Assembly: GCA_025455005.1 (NCBI GenBank)
Contig: JALONH010000009.1
Coordinates: forward strand, 1-64,000
Direction of reading: 5' to 3'
Length of the DNA: 64,000 nt
Source of the DNA: Cytophagaceae bacterium
GTDB lineage: Bacteria; Bacteroidota; Bacteroidia; Cytophagales; Cytophagaceae
This document shows, piece after piece, positions 13,808-62,351 of the stretch. Numbering within the stretch: the stretch's first letter is position 1; the number at the start of each line of letters is the position of its first letter. The translations under genes and the position numbers were made by a program. Under the pieces are notes generated by a model that saw only the letters and a program-made list of their open reading frames with translations, was not told where the DNA came from and did no database searches.

Positions 13808-15139
13808 TTAAATCATACCTCTCGATTTAAGTTCTAAATATTTATTTATGGTATTCAAGGGTAAATTCTCCGGTCTTGTGAGGATACTTTGGATACCATA
13901 TTTTTTTAACTCTTGAACGATACGTCCCTTTTCTAATAATAATTTCTTAGCAACCGTTTGTTGGTACACTTCTTCAGTAGTCAAGGGTTCTTGTAGGGCA
14001 AATTCAGTTACTTCTGTATTCTCAAAAAATACGACTACCAATAAGTGAAATTTATTTATTTTTCTCAGATAAGGTATGACTCTCTCTACACTTTGAAATG
14101 ATTCAAAATTCGTGAATAGAAAAAATAGACTTCGAACGGTTATTTTGTGTCGAATGGTCTGATAGAGTAATTCCATATTGGATTCTAAAAAATAGTCCGA
14201 CTCATTGTACAGTGCATCTAAAATGATGCGCAATTGCTTATTTCCTTTTTCCGCTTTAATCAAACGGTTTATACTATTACTATATAAGATAAGTCCGGCT
14301 TTATCTTCCTTTTGTAATGCAGTATTGCTAACTACCAAAGCCGTATTAATGGAGTGATCCAAGAGAGTCAAACCATTAAAGGGTAGTCGCATAGAACGAC
14401 TTTTATCTATAATACAATATACTTGTTGGGATTTTTCATCTTCATATTGGTTTACCATTATTTCATTTCGTCTACCGGTAGCTTTCCAGTTGATACTGCG
14501 AATATCATCTCCTCGGACATAGTTTTTAATTTGTTCAAATTCATAACTATGTCCGATTTTTCTAAGTTTTTTAATTCCATAAAATCGGGCTAGAGATTGA
14601 AATGATTTCAACTCAAAGTTTTTCATTAAGATTAACGATGGGTAGACCGATACAGATGTGGGAGACCCGGCAGTGTATTTCCGTTCGGCTAAGCCAATAA
14701 AACTTCTGATAAAAAATAAGGTGTGACCAAAATGGTAAAGCCCTCTGCTGGTAGGATAAATGGTATACTGTATTTCTTTCTTTTCTAACCTAGAAAATAG
14801 TTGAGAAATCCGAAATGTTCTATTCTCTAATTCTTCCGGTAACTCATCTATAATGGATAGGTGAAGAGGGAAAGGCGTTAGGCTTCGAATGTTTAAGGTT
14901 ATTGAATTTTCGGTCCCAAGCGAGAGCACTTTAGCACATTTTCGATAGCATACTAATTTAATAGCTTTATGATAAAGTAAGATAATATCTACCAATGTTA
15001 GTAACACCGTTGCTGTAAGGCTGATGGGGGCTAACCCTTGTAACGCGTCTATCCAATATCCTAACAGAAACAATACTATGACTATGCCCATTAGAATAAA
15101 AAAGCGCAGAGAAAGGTAGGTGTCGCGAAACCACTTCAT
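13808..15139 (-). CDS. DUF58 domain protein (vWA-like), MoxR partner
   Basis: A 443-residue protein with two N-terminal membrane segments (about residues 12-30 and 38-58), then the DUF58 hallmark GDDIRSINWKAT (210-221) and a von Willebrand A-like metal site DKSRSM from Asp245. DUF58 proteins are encoded next to MoxR AAA+ ATPases and are thought to be their partners or targets. Here it is the last gene of the five-gene operon, its start sharing one base with the MoxR stop. Biochemical role unknown. Confidence 0.88.
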   Translation of the reverse strand: MKWFRDTYLSLRFFILMGIVIVLFLLGYWIDALQGLAPISLTATVLLTLVDIILLYHKAIKLVCYRKCAKVLSLGTENSITLNIRSLTPFPLHLSIIDELPEELENRTFRISQLFSRLEKKEIQYTIYPTSRGLYHFGHTLFFIRSFIGLAERKYTAGSPTSVSVYPSLILMKNFELKSFQSLARFYGIKKLRKIGHSYEFEQIKNYVRGDDIRSINWKATGRRNEIMVNQYEDEKSQQVYCIIDKSRSMRLPFNGLTLLDHSINTALVVSNTALQKEDKAGLILYSNSINRLIKAEKGNKQLRIILDALYNESDYFLESNMELLYQTIRHKITVRSLFFLFTNFESFQSVERVIPYLRKINKFHLLVVVFFENTEVTEFALQEPLTTEEVYQQTVAKKLLLEKGRIVQELKKYGIQSILTRPENLPLNTINKYLELKSRGMI

Positions 15140-16119
15140 TATCTCGGAATTTCCAATTTTTCAATAATACTTTGAATAATGTCTTCTGGTGTTGCACCTT
15201 CCATTTCTTTTTCCGGACTTAAAACAATACGATGGTTCATCACGGGTTTAGCCACAAATTGAATGTCTTCCGGTATTACAAAATTTCTACCTCGCATCGC
15301 TGCTAAAGCCTTAGACGCTTTCAATATCGACAAAGAGGCTCGAGTAGAAGCGCCTAAATACAAATCCGGGTGATTTCTTGTTTGCAATACAAGAGCAGCA
15401 ATATAATCGATTAAATGACTTTCTATACTGACTTCTTCAATCACCTGTGTGATAAAGGAAAGGTCTTGAACGGAAAGAACCGGTTGTATGGTCTCGGCTT
15501 TTGATTGTTTAAAATCGTTTTTAAATAAATGTAATATCTGTTTTTCTTCTTCCAATGTAGGATATTGCATTTTTATTTTAAAAATAAATCGATCTAATTG
15601 GGCTTCCGGTAGTTTGTACGTTCCTTCTTGTTCGATAGGATTTTGAGTGGCAATAACAAAGAAAGGAAAATGTAAAATATGTGTATCTCCATCAATCGTA
15701 ATTTGTTTTTCTTCCATTACTTCAAACAAGGCTGCTTGAGTTTTAGCAGGAGAACGGTTGATTTCATCAATAAGTACAACATTTGAAAAAATAGGTCCTT
15801 TCTTAAATTGAAACTCTGATGTTTTTAAATTAAATATACTCGTTCCCAATACATCCGTAGGCATTAGATCCGGAGTAAATTGAATACGATTAAATTGTAT
15901 GTCCAATGCTTTGGCTAAACTTTTTGCGGTCATGGTTTTGGCTATACCCGGTACCCCTTCCAGTAATACGTGTCCACCAGAAACAATACCTACCAACAGT
16001 AAATCTATCATGGCATCTTGACCAATAACAACTTTATGTATTTCGTTTTTTACGTTTAGAATCAATTGATTCATACGTACGTATTTATCATCCGACTGAA
16101 AATGAAGGTTTGTTTCCAT
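15139..16119 (-). CDS. MoxR-family AAA+ ATPase
   Basis: A 326-residue AAA+ ATPase. Walker A is GVPGIAKT (residues 55-62), Walker B is VVLIDEINRS (from about residue 114), and sensor-1 is FFVIATQNPIEQEGTYKLPEAQLDRF, recognised by ATQNPIEQEGTY and LPEAQLDRF. MoxR proteins act as chaperone-like ATPases that help vWA-domain proteins mature. Here the obvious vWA partner is the DUF58 protein just downstream. Start and stop codons of its neighbours overlap by one base on both sides, so expression must be coupled. Confidence 0.93.
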   Translation of the reverse strand: METNLHFQSDDKYVRMNQLILNVKNEIHKVVIGQDAMIDLLLVGIVSGGHVLLEGVPGIAKTMTAKSLAKALDIQFNRIQFTPDLMPTDVLGTSIFNLKTSEFQFKKGPIFSNVVLIDEINRSPAKTQAALFEVMEEKQITIDGDTHILHFPFFVIATQNPIEQEGTYKLPEAQLDRFIFKIKMQYPTLEEEKQILHLFKNDFKQSKAETIQPVLSVQDLSFITQVIEEVSIESHLIDYIAALVLQTRNHPDLYLGASTRASLSILKASKALAAMRGRNFVIPEDIQFVAKPVMNHRIVLSPEKEMEGATPEDIIQSIIEKLEIPR

Positions 16120-17474
16120 TAAGATTGAATTTTAGTGTAAATGTAATGAGCTATTTGATTGAATTTTTTAAAATCACTTTCTGAAATATCATATCCGGGT
16201 GTACTGTATTTTCTTCCTGTATGAATAAAATATTTCCATTCTTCTTCCGATACCCTAGTTTTTACTGCTAATATAGGCAACTGTTCCAAATAAGAATCTT
16301 TTATAGTGAATCCATACGTATTGTAAAGGGTCATATTCATTTGTTTATAGGTCAGTAGAACTAATTGTTCTTTATTTCCACTAGAGAAAAACATTCTACC
16401 GGTTGTTAAGATATAATCCATTGTAGCATTTCGTTTTGGTTCAATAACCATCATGGAGCGTTGTCTCCTTTTACCATAAAATACTATATATAGGATACCG
16501 GAAATCAATAACAAATACCAAGCGTTTCGTAAGGACACATTATTTAGAATATATTCTAATATAGTTTCATGTTCTGTCTTTTCTTTAGGATAAAACGGAG
16601 GGGTAGAGGTGGAATAGTTGTCCCACCATAGTTCATTTCGTTTAAAAGAGTGAAAGAATGTGTTTAAAAAAAGAAAAGCCTTCGAATCTCGAATAAAGTA
16701 GTTGCTAAAATTATCCGGTTGAGTATGAAGATGGAGAGAGCCTTTTCCTAAATTTATTTTTACTCCTATAGGAACTCTTATGGTACCATTGGAACTTGAG
16801 CTGTACAGAGCATAGTCTTGAATGATTACCCCGGGAATTTTTTTAATGGAATCTGTCCAAAAATATAATACCATACTTTTAGGAAGGAAAGTATTCCCGG
16901 TGGAGGAAGGTATATTAATATTTCGTTTATCTACTCTATTGCTATCCACTGTATATTGAATTTGATATTGGTTCAGAACTGTTACATTTTGGACCAGTCT
17001 GGTATCCTGAAGCGATGAGATAAAGGGTGATTCACTCTCTACGTTACCATAGAAGAAAGATTTGGGTTCCCCTTTATTTCTCCAATATCGATAGTGTATG
17101 GAATCGAATAAAAAATGTTGAAAAGCGTGCGCTGAAATAAATACATTGTTTCCTTGTTCTACAAAATGAAGTAGGGCTTTTATGTCTAAGGGATGAATGT
17201 AATAGTGCTCTCCTATATAAATGTATTGATGAGGGATTTCGGTATTCTTGGGTAATTGATTTCGGATGGGTTTGGTGATGTAGTTGATTCGATTACCATA
17301 GCTTTTTTCCATCATGGATTTAAATACGGTAGTACCATAGGGTGTTTTGTTTTTTTGTTGAATATACTGAGTCCAATCCGTTTTAGGAGTAGAAGTATAA
17401 TAAAAGCCAAAATATACTAGAACTGAAAGGACTAGAACCGCAAATATGATTCCGAAAAGAGTCGTTTTATTCAT
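16119..17474 (-). CDS. DUF4350 domain membrane protein
   Basis: A 451-residue protein with one N-terminal transmembrane helix (FAVLVLSVLVYFGFYY) and a second near residues 318-335 (AWYLLLISGILYIVFYGKRRQ). The extracytoplasmic part between them resembles the DUF4350/GATase-like domain (TPYGTTVFKSMMEK near the start, FVEQGNNVFISAH in the middle). A cytoplasmic tail of about 115 residues follows. It belongs to the MoxR-DUF58 operon and overlaps the upstream DUF4129-like gene by 8 bases. Function unknown. The position suggests a membrane subunit serviced by MoxR. Confidence 0.8.
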   Translation of the reverse strand: MNKTTLFGIIFAVLVLSVLVYFGFYYTSTPKTDWTQYIQQKNKTPYGTTVFKSMMEKSYGNRINYITKPIRNQLPKNTEIPHQYIYIGEHYYIHPLDIKALLHFVEQGNNVFISAHAFQHFLFDSIHYRYWRNKGEPKSFFYGNVESESPFISSLQDTRLVQNVTVLNQYQIQYTVDSNRVDKRNINIPSSTGNTFLPKSMVLYFWTDSIKKIPGVIIQDYALYSSSSNGTIRVPIGVKINLGKGSLHLHTQPDNFSNYFIRDSKAFLFLNTFFHSFKRNELWWDNYSTSTPPFYPKEKTEHETILEYILNNVSLRNAWYLLLISGILYIVFYGKRRQRSMMVIEPKRNATMDYILTTGRMFFSSGNKEQLVLLTYKQMNMTLYNTYGFTIKDSYLEQLPILAVKTRVSEEEWKYFIHTGRKYSTPGYDISESDFKKFNQIAHYIYTKIQS

Positions 17475-18156
17475 TCGTCGGAGTAGGTATTAAAGACTGA
17501 ATAAACGTACGGAAAACCTGTGTTGCCTCCTCATATTGTTCCGGAAGTAAGGGATATTCACCATACCAAACATAATTAAAAATATAGGATAACTTTGCAA
17601 ACGTGGGATACAAAGGTGTATGCAACAAAGCTTGCTGGTAGAACTCATTCGTTTTGTTTTTCTCCCATTGAATTTTACCTATTAGATGAAGTTGTTGCAA
17701 CGTAATTAAGTAGTTGATACGAATGACTTGTCTGGGATTATTTTCCTTTATATATTTTTCTAATAGATGGTTTAAATTCCATTCTTCTATAGGTTTATTT
17801 TCTAGTTCTTGGTCTAAAATAGATACAGCGGTGTATTTCCCCTTTAGTTTTGTATTCGTATTGTTTATGAGTATAAATCGATTGAGGATTAAGACCAAAA
17901 GAGCGGCTACCAGTAGGATTACTCCAACGTATACAAATCCATTTAAAAATTGAAGATTAGGTAATTTAAAGTTTTTTTTATTTTTAACATAGGGATCAGA
18001 TGTCGTTTCAGGTTTATCCTCGATAAAATTTAATTCTGAAACCTCTTGTTTCCAATGGGTAGAATCAAATAGCAGAGGATCATTCTTTTGACCATAAGAA
18101 AACAGTGTCATCAGAAGGAATAGTAAACTATAGGTATAGTGTCTGATTACGCCCAC
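17467..18156 (-). CDS. DUF4129-like membrane protein
   Basis: A 229-residue protein with a signal-anchor (YSLLFLLMTLFSYGQ), a polar region, a central transmembrane helix (FVYVGVILLVAALLVLILNRFI, given by FVYVGVILLVAALLV) and a cytoplasmic C-terminal domain rich in aromatic residues (FAKLSYIFNYVWYGEYPL). The FxxxxYxxVWYGxxP ending is the recognisable part of DUF4129, a domain regularly found in MoxR-DUF58-DUF4350 clusters and in transglutaminase fusions. It overlaps both neighbours (10 and 8 bases). No enzymatic motif is visible. Confidence 0.7.
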   Translation of the reverse strand: MGVIRHYTYSLLFLLMTLFSYGQKNDPLLFDSTHWKQEVSELNFIEDKPETTSDPYVKNKKNFKLPNLQFLNGFVYVGVILLVAALLVLILNRFILINNTNTKLKGKYTAVSILDQELENKPIEEWNLNHLLEKYIKENNPRQVIRINYLITLQQLHLIGKIQWEKNKTNEFYQQALLHTPLYPTFAKLSYIFNYVWYGEYPLLPEQYEEATQVFRTFIQSLIPTPTNE

Positions 18157-19967
18157 TTTTCAATAATTTTTTTCTTCAGATAAGTAGCGGTTTGGATTTC
18201 CTTACAGGAGAATAATTTCCAATGAGGCCCCCAATACAGGATAGAACTTAACAATAACATTGAACCAAGTATTAAGAAGGTGTCAATAAAGGTATAAATG
18301 TATTGGACGCCTATAAAATCTTTCGGAATGTTCATATGAATAAAAACACTGATGAAGTATACCATAAAGGAGTTTAATAAAACAAAATAAACGGAACCAA
18401 ACAGTAGTAACACTACTTGGATTTGAATCATACTCCATATGTTTTTAGTTAACAGTGAAAAAACAGGTATTAAATTGGAAAATAAAAATTTGTTTTCTTG
18501 AACAGCCATACTACATGCAGCCATAAGATAGGAGGACAGCGGAATAAATACAATTAGATTCCATGGGAAAAACAGTTCAAATGTACATAGTAGTAAAACG
18601 ACAGTTAGGCCTGCATTGCATATGGCCTTTAATACGGTGCCTATACGAACAGGTACCGAAAGGGAAGCAGAGTTGACTTGCACTAAAGTTAACATACTTG
18701 TCCAGGCAATCCCAATTGTCAGGAGGATATACCACGGAGCTGAATTGTTTAAATATCCGGAAAATGAAACGATAGTAATATCCTCAAAGATATAGGAATT
18801 CCATTCGTATAAAATAGTGCACGTGGCAGCTGCACTAAGGAGTAGCATTAATTTAAGACCTATTCGATACGATAGATCTTGATGAAACGAATGCATTGCT
18901 ATTTGTATCGTTTCTGTTTCTGTTAAAATGTTTTCTTTAGAAGGAGTTGGAATTTCATTGATAGGTACTTTATCTTCTTTTATCCATTTAGAAAATGATT
19001 GGGTTTTATTTTTATACCAAGGTAACACAACGAAATAGCCGATTAAAAAAAACAAACTTAATAAAATTAAAAAGCCTCTTATGATATCCGGAGTATTCGT
19101 ATAACGCGTCATGAAACTTTCGATAATAGCAGCAAACGCCGTAATAGGAAGCGTGCCCATTAATATCTTAAAACCCTGCTTGGCTGATCGTTGAAAAGCT
19201 TGTAATCGAGTGAACGTGCCGGGGAATAAAAGACCGCTACCCAGTCGAAGTCCGGCTGTAGTAGCTATAACCATACCACCAATTTCCAAGGTGCCGTGCA
19301 GCCAAATTGCTAACATAGATTCTTGTAATAATCCTTTTTCATAAAAGAAAAATTGGAAGGTTCCAATCATAATGCCATTATATAAAGTAATGAATAGAGA
19401 TCCTATACCTAAAAGTAAACCGGATGCAAAGGTTAAAAAGTCAACTCGAATATTATTAAGAGTTATTTTAAAATACATATCCCATTCGTTCATGGATTTG
19501 TATACTGCCATAGGATCATTGTTAGCAATGTTTGCTTCTGTCATGGCTATGTAATCATCCCCTAAGATACTATTGACAAAGTGAGCATCTTTAATGGAAG
19601 AAAAAATGCCTATACTCACTGCTATACATAAGGTACAAAAGCTTAACAAGAGTTCTTTACGTGCATCCCACATCATCTTAGGGAGTTCCTCTTTCCAGAA
19701 GAAAATGATATCTCTTTTATTGGATCGCCTATTTTTATACACATATGAATAAAGCTGACGAGCCAAATCATTTAAATACAAACGAACAGAACGATTTTTG
19801 TAATAGGTTTGAGCATAGGATAAGTCTTCGCTCACTTGAATAAATTGGTCAACTAAGGTATCTGGATTTTTATGGGTTTGATCTAGGTGTTTTTCCAGTC
19901 TCCTCCATTTGTCTATATTCTGCTTAATAAAAAAGGACTCTTTCATGAGTTTTGGATACAATAACAA
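18147..19967 (-). CDS. SpoIIM/DUF95-type membrane protein
   Basis: A 606-residue polytopic protein. The N-terminal third has the stage II sporulation protein M (DUF95) signature: a soluble segment, then helices around NNIRVDFLTFASGLLLGIGS and a conserved WLHGTLEIGGMVIATTAG(L) stretch. The C-terminal half is a second membrane domain with about eight helices. This organism does not sporulate. In Bacteroidetes and Actinobacteria, SpoIIM homologues lie next to RDD proteins and MoxR/DUF58, as here. It is the first gene of the operon, and the RDD gene starts divergently 60 bases away. A role in membrane remodelling is plausible but untested. Confidence 0.83.
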   Translation of the reverse strand: MLLYPKLMKESFFIKQNIDKWRRLEKHLDQTHKNPDTLVDQFIQVSEDLSYAQTYYKNRSVRLYLNDLARQLYSYVYKNRRSNKRDIIFFWKEELPKMMWDARKELLLSFCTLCIAVSIGIFSSIKDAHFVNSILGDDYIAMTEANIANNDPMAVYKSMNEWDMYFKITLNNIRVDFLTFASGLLLGIGSLFITLYNGIMIGTFQFFFYEKGLLQESMLAIWLHGTLEIGGMVIATTAGLRLGSGLLFPGTFTRLQAFQRSAKQGFKILMGTLPITAFAAIIESFMTRYTNTPDIIRGFLILLSLFFLIGYFVVLPWYKNKTQSFSKWIKEDKVPINEIPTPSKENILTETETIQIAMHSFHQDLSYRIGLKLMLLLSAAATCTILYEWNSYIFEDITIVSFSGYLNNSAPWYILLTIGIAWTSMLTLVQVNSASLSVPVRIGTVLKAICNAGLTVVLLLCTFELFFPWNLIVFIPLSSYLMAACSMAVQENKFLFSNLIPVFSLLTKNIWSMIQIQVVLLLFGSVYFVLLNSFMVYFISVFIHMNIPKDFIGVQYIYTFIDTFLILGSMLLLSSILYWGPHWKLFSCKEIQTATYLKKKIIEKWA

Positions 19968-20027: not shown

Positions 20028-20753
20028 ATGAATACCGTAACCATTCGTACCCCGCAAAATGTCTTAATCGAGTATGAAGCGGCAACTCTTATGGAAAGAG
20101 TTATTGCTCAAATTATTGATACTGCTTTAATGGGGATGCTGGCATTTTTTCTTTTTATGGCCGGTATTACGGTCTTTACCTCTAGTATTCAAACGGTTTT
20201 GATTGTACTGGTTGCTTTGTTGTTCACCTTCGCTACCTTATTATGTGAGCTATACGGAGATGGAATGTCGATAGGGAAGTGGTTGTTAAAGATCCAAGTA
20301 AAACGATTAGATGGACAAGAATTAAAACTAAACGATGTGTTAAGCCGTTGGGCATTCAGCTTTTTAGAAATATACCTAACATTTGGTACCCTTGCTGTTT
20401 TTATGATACAAGTATCGCAAAAGAAACAACGGATGGGGGATTTAGTTGCGACTACAACAGTTATCAAACGAAGGGCGAGTTATTTGGTAACGTTAGAAAA
20501 TGTAAAGAACAGAAAAAGTGCGGAAGACTATACCCCAACTTACCCTGGGGTGGAACGATTAAAAGAAGAGCAAATGTTGATATTAAAATCTACTTTGGAT
20601 CGTTATGAAAAATATAAAAATGAGGGGCATCAAGAAGCCCTTTTGTTATTAACAAAACACGTTTGCCAGGTATTAAATATTCCAGTTCCGAAAAAGAATA
20701 AAGCAGCGTTTTTAAAACAAATCTTAAAAGACTATGTCATTCTTACCAGGTAA
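20028..20753 (+). CDS. RDD-family membrane protein
   Basis: A 241-residue protein with the RDD domain: Arg in MERVIAQIIDTALMG, and Asp in the third segment (GKWLLKIQVKRLDGQELKLNDVLSRW, key residues LLKIQVKRLDG and RRMGDL-like QRMGDLVATT). It has three to four transmembrane helices in the first 150 residues and a soluble C-terminal tail. RDD and SpoIIM proteins are repeatedly neighbours, and some RDD proteins affect ion or osmotic balance. Here it faces the SpoIIM operon across a 60-base divergent promoter region. Its end overlaps the next gene by 20 bases. Confidence 0.83.
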   Translation: MNTVTIRTPQNVLIEYEAATLMERVIAQIIDTALMGMLAFFLFMAGITVFTSSIQTVLIVLVALLFTFATLLCELYGDGMSIGKWLLKIQVKRLDGQELKLNDVLSRWAFSFLEIYLTFGTLAVFMIQVSQKKQRMGDLVATTTVIKRRASYLVTLENVKNRKSAEDYTPTYPGVERLKEEQMLILKSTLDRYEKYKNEGHQEALLLLTKHVCQVLNIPVPKKNKAAFLKQILKDYVILTR

Positions 20754-21255
20754 GATCGTTCCATATTCTGTTTTAAAGATACTCGTATATTGTATGTGGC
20801 TTGTTTACATGCCCGTTCAAGCTCAAGACACGGTACGAATACAGATAGATGGTATGACCTGTAGCTTATGTAGTCGAAACGTACAGCAACAAATACAACA
20901 ACTGCAATTTGTAAAAAAAGTATGGTTGCAATTAAACACAAATGTGGCAGAGGTAATAGTCGATACGAGTAGGTCTGTTTCTATAGAAGCCTTGGCAAAA
21001 GCGGTTTATAATGCAGGATTTACTGTAGGCAAATTTTTAGTTCCAATACCGCCTAATCCTCGATATTCAGGTATCTATTCGTATCAATATATTTCGATTC
21101 AACCACCCTCCGGACAATTTATGACAACCGGTTATTACACGCTGGTTGGTAAAGCCTATATGAATCAAGAAGCCTATAAAAAAGTGAAGCGAGCGCTTAA
21201 AGGGATGCACTATATTCCTCCAGTAAACAACGAAAAAATACTATATTATCAATGA
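20734..21255 (+). CDS. Exported heavy-metal-associated (HMA) domain protein
   Basis: A 173-residue protein with an N-terminal signal peptide (hydrophobic core VLKILVYCMWLVYM, cleavage near PVQAQ). It is followed directly by an HMA/MerP-like fold whose metal-binding loop is GMTCSLC with Cys43 and Cys46. The second half (from residue 95) has no obvious family and contains a proline-rich linker (PIPPNPRY) and a possible second alpha-beta unit. A free extracytoplasmic HMA domain suggests periplasmic binding of copper, zinc or mercury ions. It overlaps the RDD gene by 20 bases, and its ATGA stop/start junction couples it to the outer-membrane protein downstream. Confidence 0.72.
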   Translation: MSFLPGKIVPYSVLKILVYCMWLVYMPVQAQDTVRIQIDGMTCSLCSRNVQQQIQQLQFVKKVWLQLNTNVAEVIVDTSRSVSIEALAKAVYNAGFTVGKFLVPIPPNPRYSGIYSYQYISIQPPSGQFMTTGYYTLVGKAYMNQEAYKKVKRALKGMHYIPPVNNEKILYYQ

Positions 21256-22238
21256 GTTATCGTTGGATTATCTTCTTAACACTTTCCTACATAAGTAACC
21301 TTAGCGTAGCACAGGAGTTATTCCCCTATGCAGAAGCGGCCTCGACCTTAGCCAAAGGGACAGGACAGGCTCGATTGATGTTTATGAATTTTAAAGAACA
21401 GTCGTCGAACCGAATGAAATATTGGTATGGTTTACAATACAATTATGGAATAACACCATTATGGAGTGTAGGGACAGTAGTAGGGGTGTCCAATCATCAT
21501 TTTACTTCTATACCGGTAGATGTACAAAATTATTTTTTTAATCACCATTTAAATTCTTTTCCATCCGCTCCTACCAGCATAGAAGGTATTAATGTACATT
21601 CTAAATATCGATTTTATACCCGAGATCGGCATCAAGAGCATTTGCGGGCAGCTGTTTATGTACAAGGTTGTTATTCGTTTATAGCGCACGACGAAGCAGA
21701 ACCGCTTTTAATGACGGATAACAGTGGTGTAGGAGGAGGATTTATAGGAACCTATCTAATAAAAAAATTAGCCTTGTCGATGACCTTAGGTTACATATAT
21801 CCATTTGCTTATACACAGCCGGATATTGGTTATCGGTTTCGATCCGGAAACGCATTAGAATTGTCTACATCCATTGGGTATCGTTTATGGCCCTTTACCT
21901 ATCAGTCTTATCAAGACATCAATGTGAATATATATGCTGAATTTTTAATGAAGCAGTATGGAAGAGCTACTATATCAGAATATGGTTCAAATTGGGATTT
22001 TGAAAACTTTCGACTAACCTCTCCTTATACCTACAATACCTTAACCGAAAACTTTTATATAGATGGGCGATTTTATGTACAATTAATTTTAAATTCGAAT
22101 GACAGAATTGATTTTGGAGTTAATTTCCCTATTGTCAGTCGATCATTTAATTATTGGTACCCGCATTATATGATACAATACACCACGAGTATATTTTCTG
22201 CGAAGCGGAGAGTTAAACTTCCGGATACTTCTTTTTAA
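21252..22238 (+). CDS. Putative outer-membrane protein coupled to HMA protein
   Basis: A 328-residue protein with a signal peptide (FLTLSYISNLSVAQ). The remainder is rich in alternating hydrophobic/aromatic beta-strands (LQYNYGITPLWSVGTVVGV, AAVYVQGCYSFIAH, LELSTSIGYRLWPF), consistent with an outer-membrane barrel of about 12-14 strands. It shares an ATGA overlap with the HMA-domain gene, and the pair may form a metal-handling module in the periplasm and outer membrane. That link is inferred only from gene coupling. The 3' end overlaps the convergent DUF3817 gene by 26 bases. Confidence 0.62.
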   Translation: MSYRWIIFLTLSYISNLSVAQELFPYAEAASTLAKGTGQARLMFMNFKEQSSNRMKYWYGLQYNYGITPLWSVGTVVGVSNHHFTSIPVDVQNYFFNHHLNSFPSAPTSIEGINVHSKYRFYTRDRHQEHLRAAVYVQGCYSFIAHDEAEPLLMTDNSGVGGGFIGTYLIKKLALSMTLGYIYPFAYTQPDIGYRFRSGNALELSTSIGYRLWPFTYQSYQDINVNIYAEFLMKQYGRATISEYGSNWDFENFRLTSPYTYNTLTENFYIDGRFYVQLILNSNDRIDFGVNFPIVSRSFNYWYPHYMIQYTTSIFSAKRRVKLPDTSF

Positions 22239-22925: not shown

Positions 22926-23459
22926 ATGAATAAAAAACGAATTGTATACTTGTTAGGAGCAGGACTATTGATGTGTGTTTTGGCTTCTTTTTTTGGACAT
23001 TCACACACCACTACTACAAGTCCATCGCCGGTTAAGTGGATGACGTATGAACAAGCTGCAGCCGCTGCTAAGAAATCACCCAAGCCAATATTTATAGACG
23101 TTTATACCCATTGGTGTGGGTGGTGTAAACAAATGGATAAAACCACATTTAGTCATCCTAAAATTGCCGACTATTTAAACAAGAAATTTTATCCGGTAAA
23201 AATCAATGCCGAAAGTTCCGATTCGACTACGTATAACGGAAAACGAATGACGTATGCCCAGCTTTGTGCACAAGTGTTTAAAGTGAATTCCTATCCCTCC
23301 ACCGTATATTTAGAAGCAGATGAACGATTGTTGCAACCTTTGCCCGGTTATATGGATCCCAATCAGTTTAATAAAGTGATTAAGTATATTGGTGACAACC
23401 ATTACAAGACCACTACTTGGGAGGATTTTTCAGCGAGTTTTACAGAAACAATCGAGTAA
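22926..23459 (+). CDS. Exported thioredoxin-fold protein
   Basis: A 177-residue protein with an N-terminal signal sequence or anchor (RIVYLLGAGLLMCVLASFFG) and a thioredoxin fold whose active site is WCGWCKQM with Cys64 and Cys67. The Asp-rich IFIDVYTHWCGWC start and the KVNSYPSTVYLEAD cis-proline loop match the DUF255/thioredoxin_7 (DsbD-gamma-like) group, so it is likely a periplasmic disulfide reductase or isomerase. It abuts mnmE with no gap: the stop at 23457-23459 is followed immediately by the GTG of mnmE. Confidence 0.88.
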   Translation: MNKKRIVYLLGAGLLMCVLASFFGHSHTTTTSPSPVKWMTYEQAAAAAKKSPKPIFIDVYTHWCGWCKQMDKTTFSHPKIADYLNKKFYPVKINAESSDSTTYNGKRMTYAQLCAQVFKVNSYPSTVYLEADERLLQPLPGYMDPNQFNKVIKYIGDNHYKTTTWEDFSASFTETIE

Positions 23460-25537: not shown

Positions 25538-26389
25538 TTACTGTTTATTCCGTACGATAACCTTACCTGATGTATGTATTACAAAACTAATCCCAAACAA
25601 TATTCCACTTCCCATTGCGATGGACGCGGAGATGGATACATCCCATTGCTGTGCTATCATATACCCAATACATACCGATGCTATTGCAAAGCCAAGGGAT
25701 AATAGACACATGGTCTTTAGTTGCTTTGACCATAAATACGCGCTCGCTGCCGGTACAACTAAAAACGCAATAACCAATATAGCGCCTACGGACTCAAATG
25801 CAGCTACCGTAGTAAAGGAGACTAAACTCATCAATACATAATTCCAAAGTCCTACACTCATACCTACACCGGCTGCAAAGGCACTGTCAAACGTACTAAG
25901 TTTAAAGTAGGGATAAAATACAATCAATATGAAAAATACGATTGCATTCACTAAAATTAAAGGGGGTAGTGCTACAGGAACAGAAAGGACTCCTATATCC
26001 ATTCGATGTAGGGGGACATATACAATCTCACCGTATAACACACAGTCTTGATCCAAATCTATATTATGAGCAAATACGGAAATCAATATGACGCCTAAGG
26101 CAAATAAAAACGTAAAGACGACACCAATAGCCGCATCTTCTTGTACATTAAATCGTTTATGTAATATTTCGATACATAGTGTTGTGAGGACACCGGTACA
26201 GCCAGCTCCCCACAACATCATCCAAGGATCTCTACTATCGAATACTAAATAGGCTATAACAATACCGGGTAATACGGCATGGGATATCGCATCGCCGAGC
26301 ATGACCATTTTTCGGAGGATTAAAAAACAACCCAACATACTGCAAGGTAGGGCAACTAATATGGCGGTAAGTATGATTTCGTACTTCAT
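25538..26389 (-). CDS. Metal ABC transporter permease (TroD/SitD-type)
   Basis: A 283-residue inner-membrane permease of the ABC-3 family (zinc/manganese/iron). It has about eight hydrophobic segments and the family motifs GDAISHAVLPGIVIAYLVF (key: GDAISHAVLPG) and ESVGAILVIAFLVVPAASAYL (key: VGAILVIAFLVVPAA). It is the second of two permeases, and its start overlaps the stop of the first by 4 bases. Two permeases plus a TroA-like binding protein resemble the Sit/Tro/Mts systems rather than the single-permease ZnuABC. It is last in the operon. Confidence 0.92.
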   Translation of the reverse strand: MKYEIILTAILVALPCSMLGCFLILRKMVMLGDAISHAVLPGIVIAYLVFDSRDPWMMLWGAGCTGVLTTLCIEILHKRFNVQEDAAIGVVFTFLFALGVILISVFAHNIDLDQDCVLYGEIVYVPLHRMDIGVLSVPVALPPLILVNAIVFFILIVFYPYFKLSTFDSAFAAGVGMSVGLWNYVLMSLVSFTTVAAFESVGAILVIAFLVVPAASAYLWSKQLKTMCLLSLGFAIASVCIGYMIAQQWDVSISASIAMGSGILFGISFVIHTSGKVIVRNKQ

Positions 26390-27267
26390 TTTTGTACTGT
26401 TAGAGATGAACGACGAAGAATACCTTTGGCATTTCCTATAAAAAATGAAAGTACGGCTATACTACTAATGCAGACGACAATCCATGGCCCGGTAGGCATA
26501 GAAGGATATTTATACGAAATGATTATACCCATCACGGAGGCTATCATATTAAACAGTACTGCCAATAGTAATACAACCGGAAGTCGATGGGACCAATATC
26601 GAGCGGCTACTGCCGGTGTAATCAGCATGGCAGACATCAATACGACACCTACGGCTTGTATCCCGATGACAATAGCTAATACAGACAATACCACCATTAC
26701 TTGTTGCCAACGGTGAGCTGCTATACCGATACTAAGAGCAAACGAGCGATCGAAACTAATAAGCATGAAAGGTCTATAAAATAATAGAACAGAAAACACA
26801 ACTACAAAAGCGACACTAAAGTAGAGCGGTATATCAGCCGATAATAAGGCTGCTGCCTTGCCGAGTAAAAAACTATCTAAACCACTTTGATTCCCATTTC
26901 CGTGGTGTTGGATATAAGAAAGCAAGACGACACCTACAGCGAAAAAGACCGATAATACAAGGGCAATGGCGGTATCTTGTTTTAATTTAGAATGTCGAAG
27001 AATGTATTCTATACTGAGTAAGGATAAACCTCCGGTAAGAAATGCTCCGGGTAAGATAACCCATAAGTCTTTAACTCCGGAAAATAAAAAAGCGATGGCT
27101 ATTCCGGGTAATATAGAATGCGATACTGCATCGCCGGTTAAACTCTTTTTTTGTAAATAGGTAAAGCAACCAATCAATGCTGCAGCACTATTCAGCAGTA
27201 ATGTACAAACGATGACGGTTCGCGCATTTGCATCAGCCCATAGGGATTCTACCATTACCTCATTCAT
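26386..27267 (-). CDS. Metal ABC transporter permease (TroC/SitC-type)
   Basis: A 293-residue ABC-3 family permease with eight predicted helices. Diagnostic stretches are LTGDAVSHSILPGIAIAFLF and QAVGVVLMSAMLITPAVAARYW (key: VGVVLMSAMLITPA). It is paired with the second permease and presumably forms a heterodimeric channel for Mn2+, Fe2+ or Zn2+. The start lies 2 bases after the stop of the ATPase gene. Confidence 0.92.
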   Translation of the reverse strand: MNEVMVESLWADANARTVIVCTLLLNSAAALIGCFTYLQKKSLTGDAVSHSILPGIAIAFLFSGVKDLWVILPGAFLTGGLSLLSIEYILRHSKLKQDTAIALVLSVFFAVGVVLLSYIQHHGNGNQSGLDSFLLGKAAALLSADIPLYFSVAFVVVFSVLLFYRPFMLISFDRSFALSIGIAAHRWQQVMVVLSVLAIVIGIQAVGVVLMSAMLITPAVAARYWSHRLPVVLLLAVLFNMIASVMGIIISYKYPSMPTGPWIVVCISSIAVLSFFIGNAKGILRRSSLTVQK

Positions 27268-27269
27268 TG

Positions 27270-27986
27270 TTATAGGAGTAAGCTTTCGCGTTGATACGTT
27301 TGTTGAATTCGTTCCGGCGTAAACACCTCATCGGTAGGGCCAAATGCAATTACTTTTTTATTCAATAATAAAATGGATGAAAAATACGAGCGTATAGTTT
27401 GTAAATCATGGTGTACCACCATAATGGATTTGCCGCCGGCTTGGAGTTCTTTTAATACCGATACTATATTTTTCTCTGTTGCCGCATCAACTCCGGCAAA
27501 GGGTTCATCCATAAAGTAAATAGAAGCTTCTTGAGCCAATGCACGCGCTAGAAAAACACGTTGTTGTTGACCGCCGGATAACTGCGCGATTTGTCGGTCT
27601 GCTAAGTCAATTAAATTTACTTGTTCCAAACTTTTACGTGCTATGTTGAAATCGATACTGCGGTAGCGCTTCCACCAGTTTAAATGGGGGTATCGTCCCA
27701 TTAAAACCACATCTAATACAGTAGCCGGAAAATCCCAATCGACCGATTCTCGTTGAGGTACATAGGCGATGTGCGGTCGAACAGAAGACAAAGTCTGCCC
27801 ATTAAAATAAACATTCCCTTTCTTTAAAGGGTGTATACCTAAAATACCTTTTAACAACGACGATTTACCGGCTCCGTTAGGACCCACGATAGCCGCTAAG
27901 CTAGCCGGAGCGAGTTGGAACGAAACATCGTCTACCACAACGTTATCTTGGTATTGGATGGAGATATGAGAGACGTCCAGTTGCAT
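27270..27986 (-). CDS. Metal ABC transporter ATP-binding protein (TroB-type)
   Basis: A 238-residue ATPase from the ATG at 27986, which follows the stop of the binding-protein gene by one base. A longer reading from 28019 would overlap that gene by 32 bases and adds residues not typical of the family, so I reject it. Walker A is GPNGAGKSS, the signature is LSGGQQQRVFLARAL, and Walker B is IYFMDEPFAGVD. FAGVDAATE is characteristic of zinc/manganese ABC ATPases. It powers the two permeases encoded downstream. Confidence 0.93.
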   Translation of the reverse strand: MQLDVSHISIQYQDNVVVDDVSFQLAPASLAAIVGPNGAGKSSLLKGILGIHPLKKGNVYFNGQTLSSVRPHIAYVPQRESVDWDFPATVLDVVLMGRYPHLNWWKRYRSIDFNIARKSLEQVNLIDLADRQIAQLSGGQQQRVFLARALAQEASIYFMDEPFAGVDAATEKNIVSVLKELQAGGKSIMVVHHDLQTIRSYFSSILLLNKKVIAFGPTDEVFTPERIQQTYQRESLLL

Positions 27987-27987
27987 G

Positions 27988-28911
27988 TTAACGTAAGGCT
28001 TGACAGATGGTGTGTACATTGTGTTCTACCATTCCGATGTATGTACCGGCAGGAGTTCCGGCACTACCCATGGCGTCGGAGTACAAAGTTCCTCCTATGG
28101 TAATTGGGTGTCCTTTGGCTGTACAACCTTCTACTACAGCACGAATTGATTGTTCCGAAATAGAAGATTCTATAAATACGGCTTTTATTTTTCGACTGGT
28201 AATGTATTGAACAAGTTGACTCACATCGTTTAATCCGAAATCAGCAACAGTAGAAATACCTTGTAACCCTCTAACTTCGATATGATAGGCTTGACCAAAA
28301 TATCCAAAGGCATCATGAGCTGTAATCAACACACGTTGTGCAACCGGTATACTATCGAGTTGTCGAAGTATTCGTACATGCAGTTGATCTAATTGATTTT
28401 GGTAGTCCAGCGAACGTCGTTGTATGGCAACGCTGTCGGAAGGGAATTTTGTGATAAGAAATACGGTTAAAGCTTTTACACCTTCGTTCCAAAGAGCCAC
28501 ATCAAACCAAACATGAGGATCGTATATTTGGGCAGTAGCATCCAATACACGCCATTTAGTAGAGGGGATACCATTAGTAAAAGCATAGACCGATGGATTC
28601 TTTTTTTCCAGTGCATGTAATACTTCGGACATTTTACCTTCTAAATGCAATCCATTATAAATAATAACATCAGCGGAGGTTAGTTTTTGCAAATCCCCTT
28701 CAGTGGCTTTGTACATGTGAGGGTCGACCCCCGGACCCATCAGTGCTATTACGTCTGCGGTCTCTCCCATGATCGATCGGGCAGCATCAGCCAACATTCC
28801 GGTAGTAGTGACAATGGTAGGACGTTTGTTTTTTTCACTCGGAGTAGTGGTACAGGCGGTTAACAGCAATATCCAACTACAACCTATCCAACAAATGAGT
28901 TTAGTGTACAT
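27988..28911 (-). CDS. Metal-binding lipoprotein of ABC transporter (TroA/ZnuA cluster A-I)
   Basis: A 307-residue solute-binding lipoprotein with lipobox LLTAC (Cys20). The metal ligands line up with those of Treponema TroA: His65 (VDPHMYKA), His133 (YDPHVWFD), His199 (ITAHDAFGYFG) and Asp279 (LYSDAMG). There is no long His-rich loop, unlike high-affinity zinc binders. With a DtxR-type regulator directly upstream, manganese or iron is more likely than zinc. The first 11 bases overlap the end of the regulator gene. Periplasmic, anchored in the inner membrane. Confidence 0.93.
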   Translation of the reverse strand: MYTKLICWIGCSWILLLTACTTTPSEKNKRPTIVTTTGMLADAARSIMGETADVIALMGPGVDPHMYKATEGDLQKLTSADVIIYNGLHLEGKMSEVLHALEKKNPSVYAFTNGIPSTKWRVLDATAQIYDPHVWFDVALWNEGVKALTVFLITKFPSDSVAIQRRSLDYQNQLDQLHVRILRQLDSIPVAQRVLITAHDAFGYFGQAYHIEVRGLQGISTVADFGLNDVSQLVQYITSRKIKAVFIESSISEQSIRAVVEGCTAKGHPITIGGTLYSDAMGSAGTPAGTYIGMVEHNVHTICQALR

Positions 28912-29554
28912 AGAGATTTTTAGCTACTTCGTTAGAGATGACTATTTTTTTCTTAGCGTTTAAGAGTAGTTCAAGTGATCCATCAAATTCTATTTTGTCG
29001 GTCACTTGTATCGCACAACCCGGACAAATGGCCAATCGGTCTAAGTATTGCAGAAATACAGGAGAGGTATCGGCTAGGGCGATAACTTTTCCGGAAAATG
29101 CTACCGGTACATCCGACAATAAAAATTTCTTACGTATTTTTAAATCCCCTTTTTGATCCGGTATTGGATCTCCGTGTGGATCAAAAGAAGGGTAATCTAA
29201 AAAGGCGTCCAATCGATCAATGAGTATAGTAGATTGGATGTGTTCCAATTGTTCTGCCATTTCGTGCACCTCATCCCAATTAAATTTCAGTTTATCAACC
29301 AAAAACACTTCCCATAAGCGGTGTTTTCGAACCACCAATAAGGCTTCTTTTCTACCCTTGCGCGTCAGCGATACACCTTGGTACTTAACGTAATGCACGA
29401 GCGATTTATCGGCTAACTTACGCAACATATCTGTAACCGATGCCGGTTTAGTGAGCAGCGCCTCTGCGATGGCATTGGTAGAGACTTCCCGTTGGTCTTC
29501 TCCGGACAAATGATAGATCGCTTTTAAATAATTTTCTTCCGTATAGGTTAACAT
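28901..29554 (-). CDS. DtxR/MntR/TroR-family metal-dependent transcriptional regulator
   Basis: A 217-residue regulator. The N-terminal winged helix (YTEENYLKAIYHLS, KPASVTDMLRKLADKSLVHY) is followed by the metal-binding and dimerisation helices (FNWDEVHEMAEQLEHIQS, with the His/Glu ligands H-x(2)-A-E-x-L-E-H), and then a C-terminal FeoA/SH3-like domain (GKVIALADTS, CAIQVTDKIEFDGSLEL). It heads the metal-uptake operon, with its stop overlapping the binding-protein start. It should repress its own operon when metal is plentiful, probably through the palindrome at 29725-29740. Confidence 0.93.
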   Translation of the reverse strand: MLTYTEENYLKAIYHLSGEDQREVSTNAIAEALLTKPASVTDMLRKLADKSLVHYVKYQGVSLTRKGRKEALLVVRKHRLWEVFLVDKLKFNWDEVHEMAEQLEHIQSTILIDRLDAFLDYPSFDPHGDPIPDQKGDLKIRKKFLLSDVPVAFSGKVIALADTSPVFLQYLDRLAICPGCAIQVTDKIEFDGSLELLLNAKKKIVISNEVAKNLYVH

Positions 29555-59946: not shown

Positions 59947-60954
59947 TTTTAGTTTTTTCTTGTACAAAAGATAATTGTATAACTCATTTTTATATTTTTG
60001 TATTAATACCTTTCTAATATATACACCAGAAGCAGATAACATATAATCTTCCCATTCGCTTATACCAGCTTTAGGTTTTAAGATTGCAGATGTTTCATTT
60101 TTATGAGATACAGACCAATTACACCAACTTAACTTATACTTTTCCATAAACTCAAACCACTCATTTGTTGCATTGTATCCTAACTCACCATCACCAGTAT
60201 AATCACAATCACCAAACTCAGTTACAAAAATAGCTATACCCATTTTCATTGCTTTTTCAGCTTCATCTCTTAGATATTTACCATGTGAAACAGCATAAAA
60301 ATGTAGTGTATACATAATGTTTTTTTCAATTATAGGATTTGATGCTGCTTCGGTAACCATTTGAGACCATTGCCTAGTACCTACAATAATAATATTATCA
60401 GAATCATTTTTACGAATCGTGGATATAATGTCTTCTGCATAAGGTTTAATTTGATTTGTCCAACTTGCATCTTGTAAAGGTTCATTAAAAATTTCATATA
60501 AGACATTAGGGTATTTACTATACTTTTTTGACATTTTTTCAAAAAAAGATTTAGCTAAAGCAGGATTTTTGTGAGCTTTATGGCTATGATAATCTATTAT
60601 AACATAAATACCTAAATCGATAGCCGCTTCTATAACTGTACAAATTTTCTCTTCTTCTATATCTGGATTATATAAATAACCTCCCTCTTCCTCTACACCC
60701 ATAGCTGCTCGTATAACAGTGCATTTCCAATCTTCTTTTAGCCATTTTATGGTTTCATAATTATAGTACTCAGGCATCCATTGACTCCAAAATAGTGACA
60801 TACCTCTTAACTGTACAGTATCTTTGTATTGGCTAAGTATATAGTTTCCACTTACAGATAAATGACCATATCTGAAAACGATATCTTTTTCAGCTTTTAA
60901 ATTTGAATGTATTACATTTAATATAAGTAATACTAACAGAATGCTTTTTTTCAT
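59926..60954 (-). CDS. Secreted GH5-family endoglucanase
   Basis: About 342 residues from the ATG at 60954 (MKKSILLVLLILNVIHSN, a signal peptide ending near LKA); a reading to 60981 adds nine residues and is less likely. A glycoside hydrolase family 5 TIM barrel: RGMSLFWSQWMPEYYN, CTVIRAAMGVE, VIIDYHSHKAHKN, acid/base Glu158 in YEIFNEPLQ, TLHFYAVSH, nucleophile Glu246 in FVTEFGD, and YKLSWCNWSVSHKNE. It cleaves beta-1,4-glucan (cellulose-type) outside the cell. The gene is notably AT-rich, contains no CCGG and pairs with the AraC-type regulator upstream. Confidence 0.93.
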   Translation of the reverse strand: MKKSILLVLLILNVIHSNLKAEKDIVFRYGHLSVSGNYILSQYKDTVQLRGMSLFWSQWMPEYYNYETIKWLKEDWKCTVIRAAMGVEEEGGYLYNPDIEEEKICTVIEAAIDLGIYVIIDYHSHKAHKNPALAKSFFEKMSKKYSKYPNVLYEIFNEPLQDASWTNQIKPYAEDIISTIRKNDSDNIIIVGTRQWSQMVTEAASNPIIEKNIMYTLHFYAVSHGKYLRDEAEKAMKMGIAIFVTEFGDCDYTGDGELGYNATNEWFEFMEKYKLSWCNWSVSHKNETSAILKPKAGISEWEDYMLSASGVYIRKVLIQKYKNELYNYLLYKKKLKQKKSSI

Positions 60955-61006
60955 ATAATGGTTTTGTTTTCTGTTAAACATAAACCATAATAAAACAAAA
61001 ACGTTG

Positions 61007-61024
61007 GTATTATTTAAATAATAC
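61007..61024. promoter_or_regulatory. 18-bp perfect palindrome upstream of the GH5 gene
   Basis: GTATTATTTAAATAATAC is identical to its reverse complement over all 18 bases. It lies 53 bases before the GH5 start and overlaps one copy of the direct repeat AATACTTTGCA. Confidence 0.5.
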
Positions 61025-61095
61025 TTTGCATTATTTTAACTAATTGATCGGTAGAAGATTATATAAGTTTTGTAAAAAAAATAAAATACTTTGCA
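61020..61095 (-). promoter_or_regulatory. Direct-repeat pair upstream of the GH5 gene
   Basis: AATACTTTGCA occurs at 61020-61030 and again, identical over 11 bases, at 61085-61095. On the coding strand of GH5 this is TGCAAAGTATT twice, 65 bases apart, a possible AraC-type binding pair. Confidence 0.35.
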
Positions 61096-61119
61096 AAACT
61101 AAATATATATTTAAGTATC

Positions 61120-61154
61120 AAAAAATCAGACTTTTATAGATATGGTGATTTTTT
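61120..61154 (-). terminator. Weak AT-rich terminator candidate for the AraC-type gene
   Basis: AAAAAATCA (61120-61128) pairs with TGATTTTTT (61146-61154). The stem is 9 bp but A-T rich. It follows the regulator stop on its strand. Confidence 0.3.
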
Positions 61155-61208
61155 TTACAAAAAGGATTAAAAAGTAATCATTTTTATAAACTATTGATAT
61201 TTAGATTA

Positions 61209-62351
61209 TTAAATCTTGTTCATTTTTCCTTTTCTATAATCTTTTGGTGATATACCTACGGTCTCTTTAAATACTCGATTGAAATGAGAAATATGTCCAT
61301 AGCCAACTTTATATGCAATGTCTGATATAGGTTCATTTACATCTTTTAAAAGACGTTTTGCTTCATTAATTCGGAGTTTATTTAAGTATTGTTTGAAGTT
61401 TAATTGGTATTTATCTTTTAATAATAGAGATACTTTGGAACTTTGAAGTCCTAAGTCTATTTGAATGTTGCTTAAACTTAGTTCAGGATTAGAATAATTA
61501 ACAGATATATAGGATACAAGGTTTTCTAAATCATTAACAGATTTATTAACCATATTTACAGGTGTATATTGAATTTCTATTGTTTCGCTTAAAGAAATAG
61601 TTTTTCTTTTTCTAATAAGAAGTAAAAGAAATAAATAATAAACGATTCCAAAGGATAATAGGTAGCCGTAGAAAATATAAATGTTTTTTGTAAATCGAAT
61701 TGAATACAAAGTGATTTTATCTTTAACCCCATTTGGAATTAATTGACAATTTTGAATGTTAATAGAAGCTAATTTATCGAAAGAATAATTGGAAACCTCT
61801 TCCTCTTTAATATTTTCTTTTAGATACCACCAGGAAGGAGTATAAAAATCATCTAATGATAAAGTGTATTTTTTTTGCTTTTGATTTAAATCCAGATCCT
61901 TAACGATATACTTTTTTAAATAATTATTATCCTTTTTAAAAATTGAATTAATGCCTAATAGCATTTGTGGACGTTTAGTTATTGTACCAGCAATATCTAT
62001 TTCAATAAAATCAAATTCATTAATATTTAATAAAGTGTTGTTTTGGGAAAGCAAAGTAATTCCTGCATAAGGTGTTGTATTATTTTTTTGAAGTTCATAC
62101 TCAAATACTATAGAATCAGTGTGATTAATGATAATATTGGATTTCGAATACGATAAAATAGGAGAGTATACAGTATCAGAATAAGAATATACTTTATATA
62201 GATTATTTGATGTATTAGGTGTTATGGTTAGGGTTTTATGTGGTTCTACAATATAAAAGGCTACTATAAAAACAAATAATGGTAATGAAATTAGTAAAAA
62301 ATAAATTGAATTCAGTTTGAACGGAGCAATTCGCATTATATTGAAAAACAT
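61209..62351 (-). CDS. Membrane-anchored AraC-family transcriptional regulator
   Basis: A 380-residue protein of unusual layout. An N-terminal transmembrane helix (SIYFLLISLPLFVFIVAFYIV) is followed by an extracytoplasmic domain of about 180 residues that looks like a beta-sandwich (FVYELQKNNTTPYAG-type strands, WWYLKENIKEEEVSNYSFDKL). A second helix (IYIFYGYLLSFGIVYYLFLLL) precedes a short linker and the AraC/XylS double helix-turn-helix (about residues 280-375: YISVNYSNPELSLSNIQIDLGLQ, INEAKRLLKDVNEPISDIAYKVGYGHISHFNRVFKETVGISPKDYR, recognised by SDIAYKVGYGHISHFNRVFKE). It is probably a receptor that senses a sugar outside and controls the downstream GH5 gene. Confidence 0.85.
   Translation of the reverse strand: MFFNIMRIAPFKLNSIYFLLISLPLFVFIVAFYIVEPHKTLTITPNTSNNLYKVYSYSDTVYSPILSYSKSNIIINHTDSIVFEYELQKNNTTPYAGITLLSQNNTLLNINEFDFIEIDIAGTITKRPQMLLGINSIFKKDNNYLKKYIVKDLDLNQKQKKYTLSLDDFYTPSWWYLKENIKEEEVSNYSFDKLASINIQNCQLIPNGVKDKITLYSIRFTKNIYIFYGYLLSFGIVYYLFLLLLIRKRKTISLSETIEIQYTPVNMVNKSVNDLENLVSYISVNYSNPELSLSNIQIDLGLQSSKVSLLLKDKYQLNFKQYLNKLRINEAKRLLKDVNEPISDIAYKVGYGHISHFNRVFKETVGISPKDYRKGKMNKI

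Follow-up and report, generated by a model that had tools for sequence, protein, structure and literature searches.

What does an exported HMA protein do when its gene runs straight into that of a putative outer-membrane barrel? The question is raised by a 64,000-nucleotide stretch of DNA from a Cytophagaceae bacterium (assembly GCA_025455005.1, contig JALONH010000009.1, positions 1 to 64,000 of the forward strand), hereafter the window, in which the barrel start codon lies on the HMA stop (Table 1). A first-pass annotation, made from the sequence alone, had placed both genes exactly, noted this ATGA coupling, and suggested an undescribed metal-handling pair. The HMA and barrel genes are almost certainly a real conserved pair, and the barrel protein is very probably an outer-membrane channel. 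Because the pairs of some relatives sit in copper-resistance-type clusters, the pair probably handles copper at the outer membrane.

A recurrent HMA–barrel gene pair

An HMA gene with a GxxCxxC motif lies within 0.6 kb of the barrel gene in 55 of 58 distinct loci, in all 55 on the upstream side and in 54 on the same strand. The locus set was obtained by scanning 74 loci and dropping 16 as duplicates, most of them second copies of a genome already present (L063 and L104 come from close species). The cut or broken loci L106 and L108 are counted, five loci with an HMA match and no barrel (L075, L077, L080, L081, and L082) stand outside the 58, and the HMA detection profile was built from 24 of these loci. 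Because the pair recurs in 55 of the 58, and with barrels only 24–52% identical to the window protein (24 aligned), the idea that the arrangement is just two chance open reading frames (ORFs) or a local quirk of gene order can practically be dismissed. The homology search for conserved pairs that the first-pass annotation had called for thus finds the pair conserved, and the cysteines, whose loss would have counted against it, are kept: GxxCxxC is carried by all 55 HMA genes found beside barrels, and CxxC by 24/24 aligned partners. In L110, L112, L115, and L153, a TlpA-like gene stands between the HMA and barrel genes.

Of 59 related genomes, 22 have the barrel, each of them also among the 25 that have the HMA protein. 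A scan of named genomes returned 33 barrel loci, many of them from genomes already in the related set; the taxa include Cytophaga aurantiaca, Sporocytophaga, Taibaiella, Edaphocola, Flaviaesturariibacter, Saprospiraceae, Kapabacteria, and Ignavibacteria, among others. In a spread sample of Bacteroidota, 18 of 296 genomes (completeness at least 90%; source genome included) carry the barrel. A plasmid collection gave no DNA match to the pair, and neither of two query barrels, a long and a short one (the subfamilies described below), had a protein match there. Third-position G+C is 0.31 in both genes of the pair and 0.35 in both the overlapping RDD gene and mnmE further down.

Table 1. Features of the HMA–barrel locus (positions in the window)
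Feature	Position	Strand	Basis
Exported HMA protein, 173 residues	20734..21255	+	ORF list, Pfam, structure model, hydrophobicity
Signal-peptide-like start	HMA protein residues 1-31	+	Hydrophobic stretch
HMA domain PF00403, residues 36-96	20839..21021	+	Pfam E 2.1e-11; fold match
CSLC metal-binding motif, C43 and C46	20860..20871	+	Invariant in 24/24 aligned partners
C-terminal part of HMA protein, ~70 residues (about 105-173)	21046..21252	+	No Pfam family above cut-off
ATGA overlap, barrel start codon on HMA stop	21252..21255	+	Sequence: ...CAATGAGTT...
Outer-membrane barrel protein, 328 residues, 12 predicted strands	21252..22238	+	ORF list, structure model
Mature N-terminal segment, residues 21-37, before strand 1	21312..21362	+	Strand-free in model; plug-like by analogy with COG4313/FapF
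SNHH, residues 80-83, opening long loop before strand 4	21489..21500	+	32/32 long-subfamily barrels, 0/26 short
HDEAEPLLMTDNS, residues 146-158, next long loop	21687..21725	+	H-(D/E/T/N)..E pattern, 30/32 long, 0/26 short
RDD-family membrane protein	20028..20753	+	ORF list, Pfam; outside the conserved pair

The upstream partner is an HMA protein by both family and fold. PF00403 scores 44.5 bits against a cut-off of 24.8, the GMTCSLC motif is intact at residues 40–46, and the predicted fold matches HMA domains of copper chaperones and ATPases. A hydrophobic N-terminus precedes ..VQAQ-D; it reaches 2.23 on a simple hydrophobicity cut (a 12-residue stretch with mean above 1.8), which 23/24 aligned HMA rows pass. 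The C-terminal part, in which one helix and short strands are predicted at low to middling model confidence, has no family above cut-off in a Pfam scan of the window protein. Domain, signal peptide, and extra uncharacterized C-terminal part had all been described in the first-pass annotation and stand. In the alignment, the HMA partners of five short barrels carry a Cys-rich tail at their C-terminus. MerP, ZntA, and CopZ are among the NCBIfam profiles that come nearest, each of them well under its cut-off: the MerP profile TIGR02052 reaches 35.2 bits (equivalog cut-off 92.55), and the CopZ profiles NF033795 and NF047957 reach 37.5 (cut-off 91) and 36 (cut-off 85).

Export of an HMA domain had also been presented as unusual, which was an overstatement: MerP is such a protein, and exported HMA proteins of a GNCxMC type occur beside several loci and elsewhere in the source genome. 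There, successive genes on contig C23 (L198 4709-5883) encode a small Cys-rich protein, an exported HMA protein with GNCEMC, and an HYC-like protein; this other type of Bacteroidota exported HMA gene lies far from the window pair.

A predicted twelve-stranded barrel

AlphaFold2, given 24 sequences, models the barrel protein with 12 strands (mean predicted local distance difference test score [pLDDT] 88.4; predicted template-modeling score [pTM] 0.82), in line with the outer-membrane barrel first proposed. Its N-terminus is hydrophobic ahead of ..SVAQEL, and 21/24 barrel rows pass the hydrophobicity cut. Residues 21–37, ahead of strand 1 in the model, are highly conserved in the 24-row alignment, with Q21, E22, L23, E28, and A30 invariant; QEL(F/Y)P and DNxG served as search patterns, so their conservation is partly by selection, whereas SNHH and CxxC were never used in this way. 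With registers judged by hydrophobicity, the inward register contains 21 of the 23 strand residues with at least 90% conservation, and 19/23 when conserved columns are omitted from the in/out judgment (Fisher P = 0.001).

Family searches leave the barrel unassigned. The window protein has no match in Pfam (E ≤ 1), NCBIfam, or PHROGs, and 24 members gave just four weak single-member Pfam matches, to unrelated families. Neither a TonB plug nor a TonB-dependent barrel domain was found by Pfam in the window protein or the 24 members; TonB-dependent receptors have 22 strands. PcoB, CusC, and TonB receptors are not named among the fold matches listed, which does not exclude them. Six solved-structure chains, titled as designed or leucine-rich-repeat proteins, matched short stretches around SNHH and were taken as chance.

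Fold and profile comparisons point instead to plugged channels. The best fold match among those listed is FapF (5o65; Z 21.8, root-mean-square deviation [rmsd] 2.8, 246 residues, 11% identity); Pput2725 (4rl8), a COG4313 channel, is also matched (Z 21.1, rmsd 2.7, 236 residues, 7% identity). A profile–profile comparison of the barrel family with ten PF13557 members from related genomes gave 84% over 243 columns. In a second run, nine PF13557 members gave 91% and 21 members 97% over 264 columns; the controls were OMP_b-brl_2 (70% over 70 columns), PorP_SprF (8%), and five column shuffles (at most 0.2%). The PF13557 proteins of this run were the longest ORFs over the middle of each locus, filtered by length (9/10 and 21/25) without a rescan. 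Profiles of the two barrel subfamilies gave 11% (long) and 73% (short) against the small PF13557 set, and 95% and 91% against the large one. PF13557 itself was not matched by the window barrel at E ≤ 1, by the 24 members at E ≤ 0.1, or in the source genome. By these sequence comparisons the barrel is likely, not certainly, a remote homolog of the COG4313/Phenol_MetA_deg channels.

The likeness to COG4313/PF13557 consists of a 12-stranded barrel, a conserved segment ahead of strand 1, and a collinear profile match. If cleavage follows A20, the invariant Glu of the window barrel would be the second mature residue; in COG4313, where Glu2 is conserved, the lumen holds the N-terminal segment, and ions and some small molecules crossed the channel in vitro (PMC4493636). 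The window barrel differs in having no PF13557 match, in being coupled to an HMA gene, and, as a long-subfamily member, in its His-rich loops. With FapF, a plugged barrel, it shares a 12-strand barrel fold, whereas strand 1 begins only 17 residues after the predicted cleavage site, which leaves no room for a periplasmic coiled coil; the FapF periplasmic domain may regulate the plug (PMC5557850).

The barrels fall into a long subfamily of 32 loci (window included) and a short one of 26. SNHH is present in every long barrel and no short one, and the long loop that follows fits H(D/E/T/N)..E in all but two of the long and none of the short; D-x4-H-x-R is shared, with 32/32 long and 24/26 short barrels carrying it and both misses being partial alignments. 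In L158 and L162, 78–81 barrel residues are aligned, and motif absences there say little. Long barrel loops usually face outward, so the His/Asp/Glu loops of the long subfamily would be extracellular.

Genes around the pair in relatives and in the window

At least one copper marker other than TlpA is present in 25/58 loci (19/26 short, 6/32 long), or 21/54 when the four counted seed loci are set aside; these four are L061, L064, L073, and L110, and the uncounted L080 also supplied marker seeds. As a control, 20 arbitrary 17-kb stretches from 20 genomes gave no region with a copper marker (0/20), nor any HMA match. A CopA-like ATPase or CusA-like pump is found in the flanks of 12/58 loci (up to ~8.5 kb per side fetched). 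The first-pass observation that no ATPase or efflux gene is nearby thus holds for the window, where no copper-locus marker or recognized metal pump occurs within ~9 kb of the pair, but not for the family. Elsewhere in the source genome, on other contigs, are a CopA-like ATPase (C19), another ATPase with an HMA domain (C28), and three pumps of CusA type that score over cut-off, with CusA-type genes on C2 and C6.

Family scans identified HYC_CC_PP, HMA, a TlpA/ResA-like redoxin, HMBD, DUF3347, and a CusA/CzcA fragment beside the L110 pair; HYC_CC_PP in L073; MbnP, a di-haem CCP_MauG protein, and HlyD_D23 in L064; an AraC-type regulator in L061; and a P-type ATPase in L069. With labels partly by similarity, L064 reads CusA-like, CusB (HlyD_D23), a 126-residue protein, MbnP, MbnH-like, HMA, barrel, HYC-like, HMA, AraC-type, and HMA. 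In L148, L154, L156, and L161, the pair occurs with CopA-like ATPase, DUF3347-like, HMBD-motif, and TlpA-like genes. Together, these neighborhoods make the copper link good for the barrel family; for the lone pair in the window we infer it. Cu(I)/Ag(I) is the likely metal.

Several of these loci have features of their own. L109, L110, L112, and L115 share a compact copper-type row—HYC, HMA(GNCGMC), HMA(GLTC), TlpA-like, barrel—with not every gene in each; L110 adds a second HYC, HMBD, DUF3347, and the CusA fragment, and the pair is bracketed by two HYC genes in three of these loci. The HYC gene of L113 fell under the cut in the 58-locus scan and was left out of the marker count. No paper under the name HYC_CC_PP was found in the open-access literature. 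In L078 (from the same genome as L088, Sporocytophaga sp.), the pair-adjacent CopA-like ATPase is split into two frames; it is whole in the related L061 and L062.

Within the window, the RDD gene runs 20 bases into the HMA gene and may, because of this overlap, be co-transcribed with the pair; the same upstream order is kept in the relative L055, and another gene stands upstream in L056 and L057. An exported thioredoxin-like protein with WCGWC (22926-23459, +; Thioredox_DsbH and Thioredoxin_2 matches) is encoded 0.7 kb downstream; it resembles the TlpA-like gene of relatives' operons and has no BLAST partner among the relatives' loci compared. A gene block at 13808-19967 (−), with DUF4350-, MoxR-, and DUF58-like genes by ORF reading, ends in SpoIIM (Pfam), includes a DUF4129-like gene below cut-off, and also adjoins the pair in L055. 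By ORF reading, 25538-29554 (−) encodes a metal ABC transporter (two permeases, ATPase, and binding protein) and a DtxR/MntR-like regulator, ~3.3 kb from the pair with no sign of a link. At 60001-62000, where a glycoside-hydrolase-like gene and an AraC-type regulator are read, G+C falls to 27% (other 2-kb bins 30–46%). No tRNA was found in the window, and a promoter/terminator scan stayed at shuffle level.

A candidate copper module and known systems

We hold about an even expectation that the two proteins form a metal module at the outer membrane, with a Cu(I) chaperone in the periplasm exchanging metal with a plugged channel; we infer both the metal and the direction. Once exported, the HMA protein would chaperone or buffer Cu(I) in the periplasm, passing copper to the barrel or taking copper from it. 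The mature N-terminal segment of the barrel (QEL(F/Y)...) would plug the pore, and in the long subfamily the His/Asp/Glu-rich outer loops would form the metal path. CopA, encoded elsewhere in the source genome, would feed the periplasm with copper; in relatives with an operon copy, the TlpA/ResA-like thioredoxin would keep the CxxC reduced. The net result would most likely be removal of periplasmic copper. Outward transport is a near-even call, slightly likelier than import; we lean to export because the informative neighbors are mostly resistance-type genes. A sharper version, tentative and rather doubtful, has the HMA chaperone dock on the plugged 12-stranded channel, load or unplug it, and so carry Cu(I) through the outer membrane with neither TonB nor an RND pump.

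Several observations weigh against this module. Passive export would have no evident energy source, and the authors of the COG4313 work judged a role as a channel for hydrophilic molecules unlikely (PMC4493636). The long-subfamily profile alone reached only 11% against the small PF13557 set, and the signal stretch of the window barrel falls just under the hydrophobicity cut (1.72 against >1.8). Most marker labels were assigned by similarity to seed proteins, not by per-gene family models; three of the only six long-subfamily loci with a copper marker come from one genus, and the copper link rests mostly on the short subfamily, which has neither the SNHH nor the H(D/E)..E loops. Three of the 58 loci have no adjacent HMA gene: L097 and L114 are real absences, with no HMA match near the barrel, and L100 begins at a contig edge, 61 bases upstream of the barrel, hence its HMA side is cut off. 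The HMA and barrel distance matrices correlate strongly (Mantel r = 0.86; 0/2000 permutations as high), an agreement that is expected from joint descent alone and is no proof of contact.

The same module could run inward. In an acquisition route, the barrel would admit copper and the periplasmic HMA protein would trap it, for cuproenzyme supply or periplasmic buffering, as proposed for E. coli PcoB; we regard this as possible though improbable. A periplasmic trap would supply the pull that passive export has none of, and PcoB is reported to permit Cu import and, alone, to sensitize cells (PMC9210255). The 26/32 long-subfamily loci, window included, that have no copper marker near are also what a supply pair might show. 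The informative neighbors are, however, mostly resistance-type (CopA-like, CusA/B-like), although MbnP/MbnH could fit, and Pfam found no TonB-dependent receptor domains in the barrel.

Other cargo is less probable still. HMA domains bind several soft metals, and a pair that handles zinc, mercury, or another soft metal, which we consider unlikely, would agree with the MerP, ZntA, and CopZ profiles being among the nearest to the HMA protein, all far below cut-off; the L069 ATPase (705 residues), tallied as CopA-like, has a His-rich N-terminus with a CDF-like gene in its locus and may be zinc-type. Against this, the MbnP, MbnH-like, CusA/CusB-like, HMBD, and HYC_CC_PP neighbors point by family name to copper/silver, in scans that included no search aimed at mer genes. 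Lower again we place a COG4313-like channel for small organics or peptides that the HMA protein helps or regulates, for instance by metal-dependent plug movement. The fold and profile similarity to COG4313 and FapF, linked to hydrophobic compounds and amyloid subunits, would suit such a channel, as would the possible regulation of the FapF plug by its periplasmic domain (PMC5557850); a near-constant HMA partner and copper neighbors would be unexpected for a general channel.

Exported HMA proteins and barrels of the COG4313/FapF fold are already known. What appears new is the near-fixed HMA–barrel pairing, together with a barrel family unmatched in Pfam, NCBIfam, and PHROGs. No paper on the pair was found in the open-access literature, which leaves out most subscription papers, and Table 1 of a Bizionia copper survey, as far as that source was available, gives HMA proteins and no such barrel (PMC11213822). 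The suggestion of an undescribed metal-handling pair is thus supported in part, by the conserved pair, its retained cysteines, and the metal-gene context in relatives, and as undescribed within that literature; the exported HMA protein alone is not new. Copper passage across the outer membrane is poorly understood, and reports conflict even on the direction of PcoB (PMC12509749, PMC9210255). The copper module, if true, would put a name to an unlisted barrel family and help flag copper loci, and Cytophaga aurantiaca carries the pair and gene deletion methods exist for C. hutchinsonii, so that its role can be tested.

Among known systems, PcoA/PcoB is the nearest analogue in how it works: one operon encodes both a copper protein of the periplasm and a barrel of the outer membrane, and the direction is likewise disputed, with efflux described in Caulobacter (PMC12509749). 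The parts differ, PcoA being a multicopper oxidase in place of the HMA protein and the window barrel having no Pfam match of any kind. That includes CopB, for which Pfam presumably holds a model: the window barrel has no such match at E ≤ 1, and the four weak matches among the 24 members are to other families. A docking module that in Bacteroidota would parallel PcoA/PcoB with other components, and in one operon form would include a TlpA-type reductase for the HMA thiols, is a speculative proposal that we consider somewhat unlikely. CusF/CusABC shares periplasmic copper handling, and RND pumps stand beside the pair in some relatives; the pair itself has no RND or CusC-type member, and the CusF fold differs from the HMA fold. 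MerP, the textbook periplasmic HMA protein, binds mercury and, like the window protein, is an exported single HMA domain with GMTCxxC, whereas the window protein adds a C-terminal part and has a predicted outer-membrane barrel as its partner.

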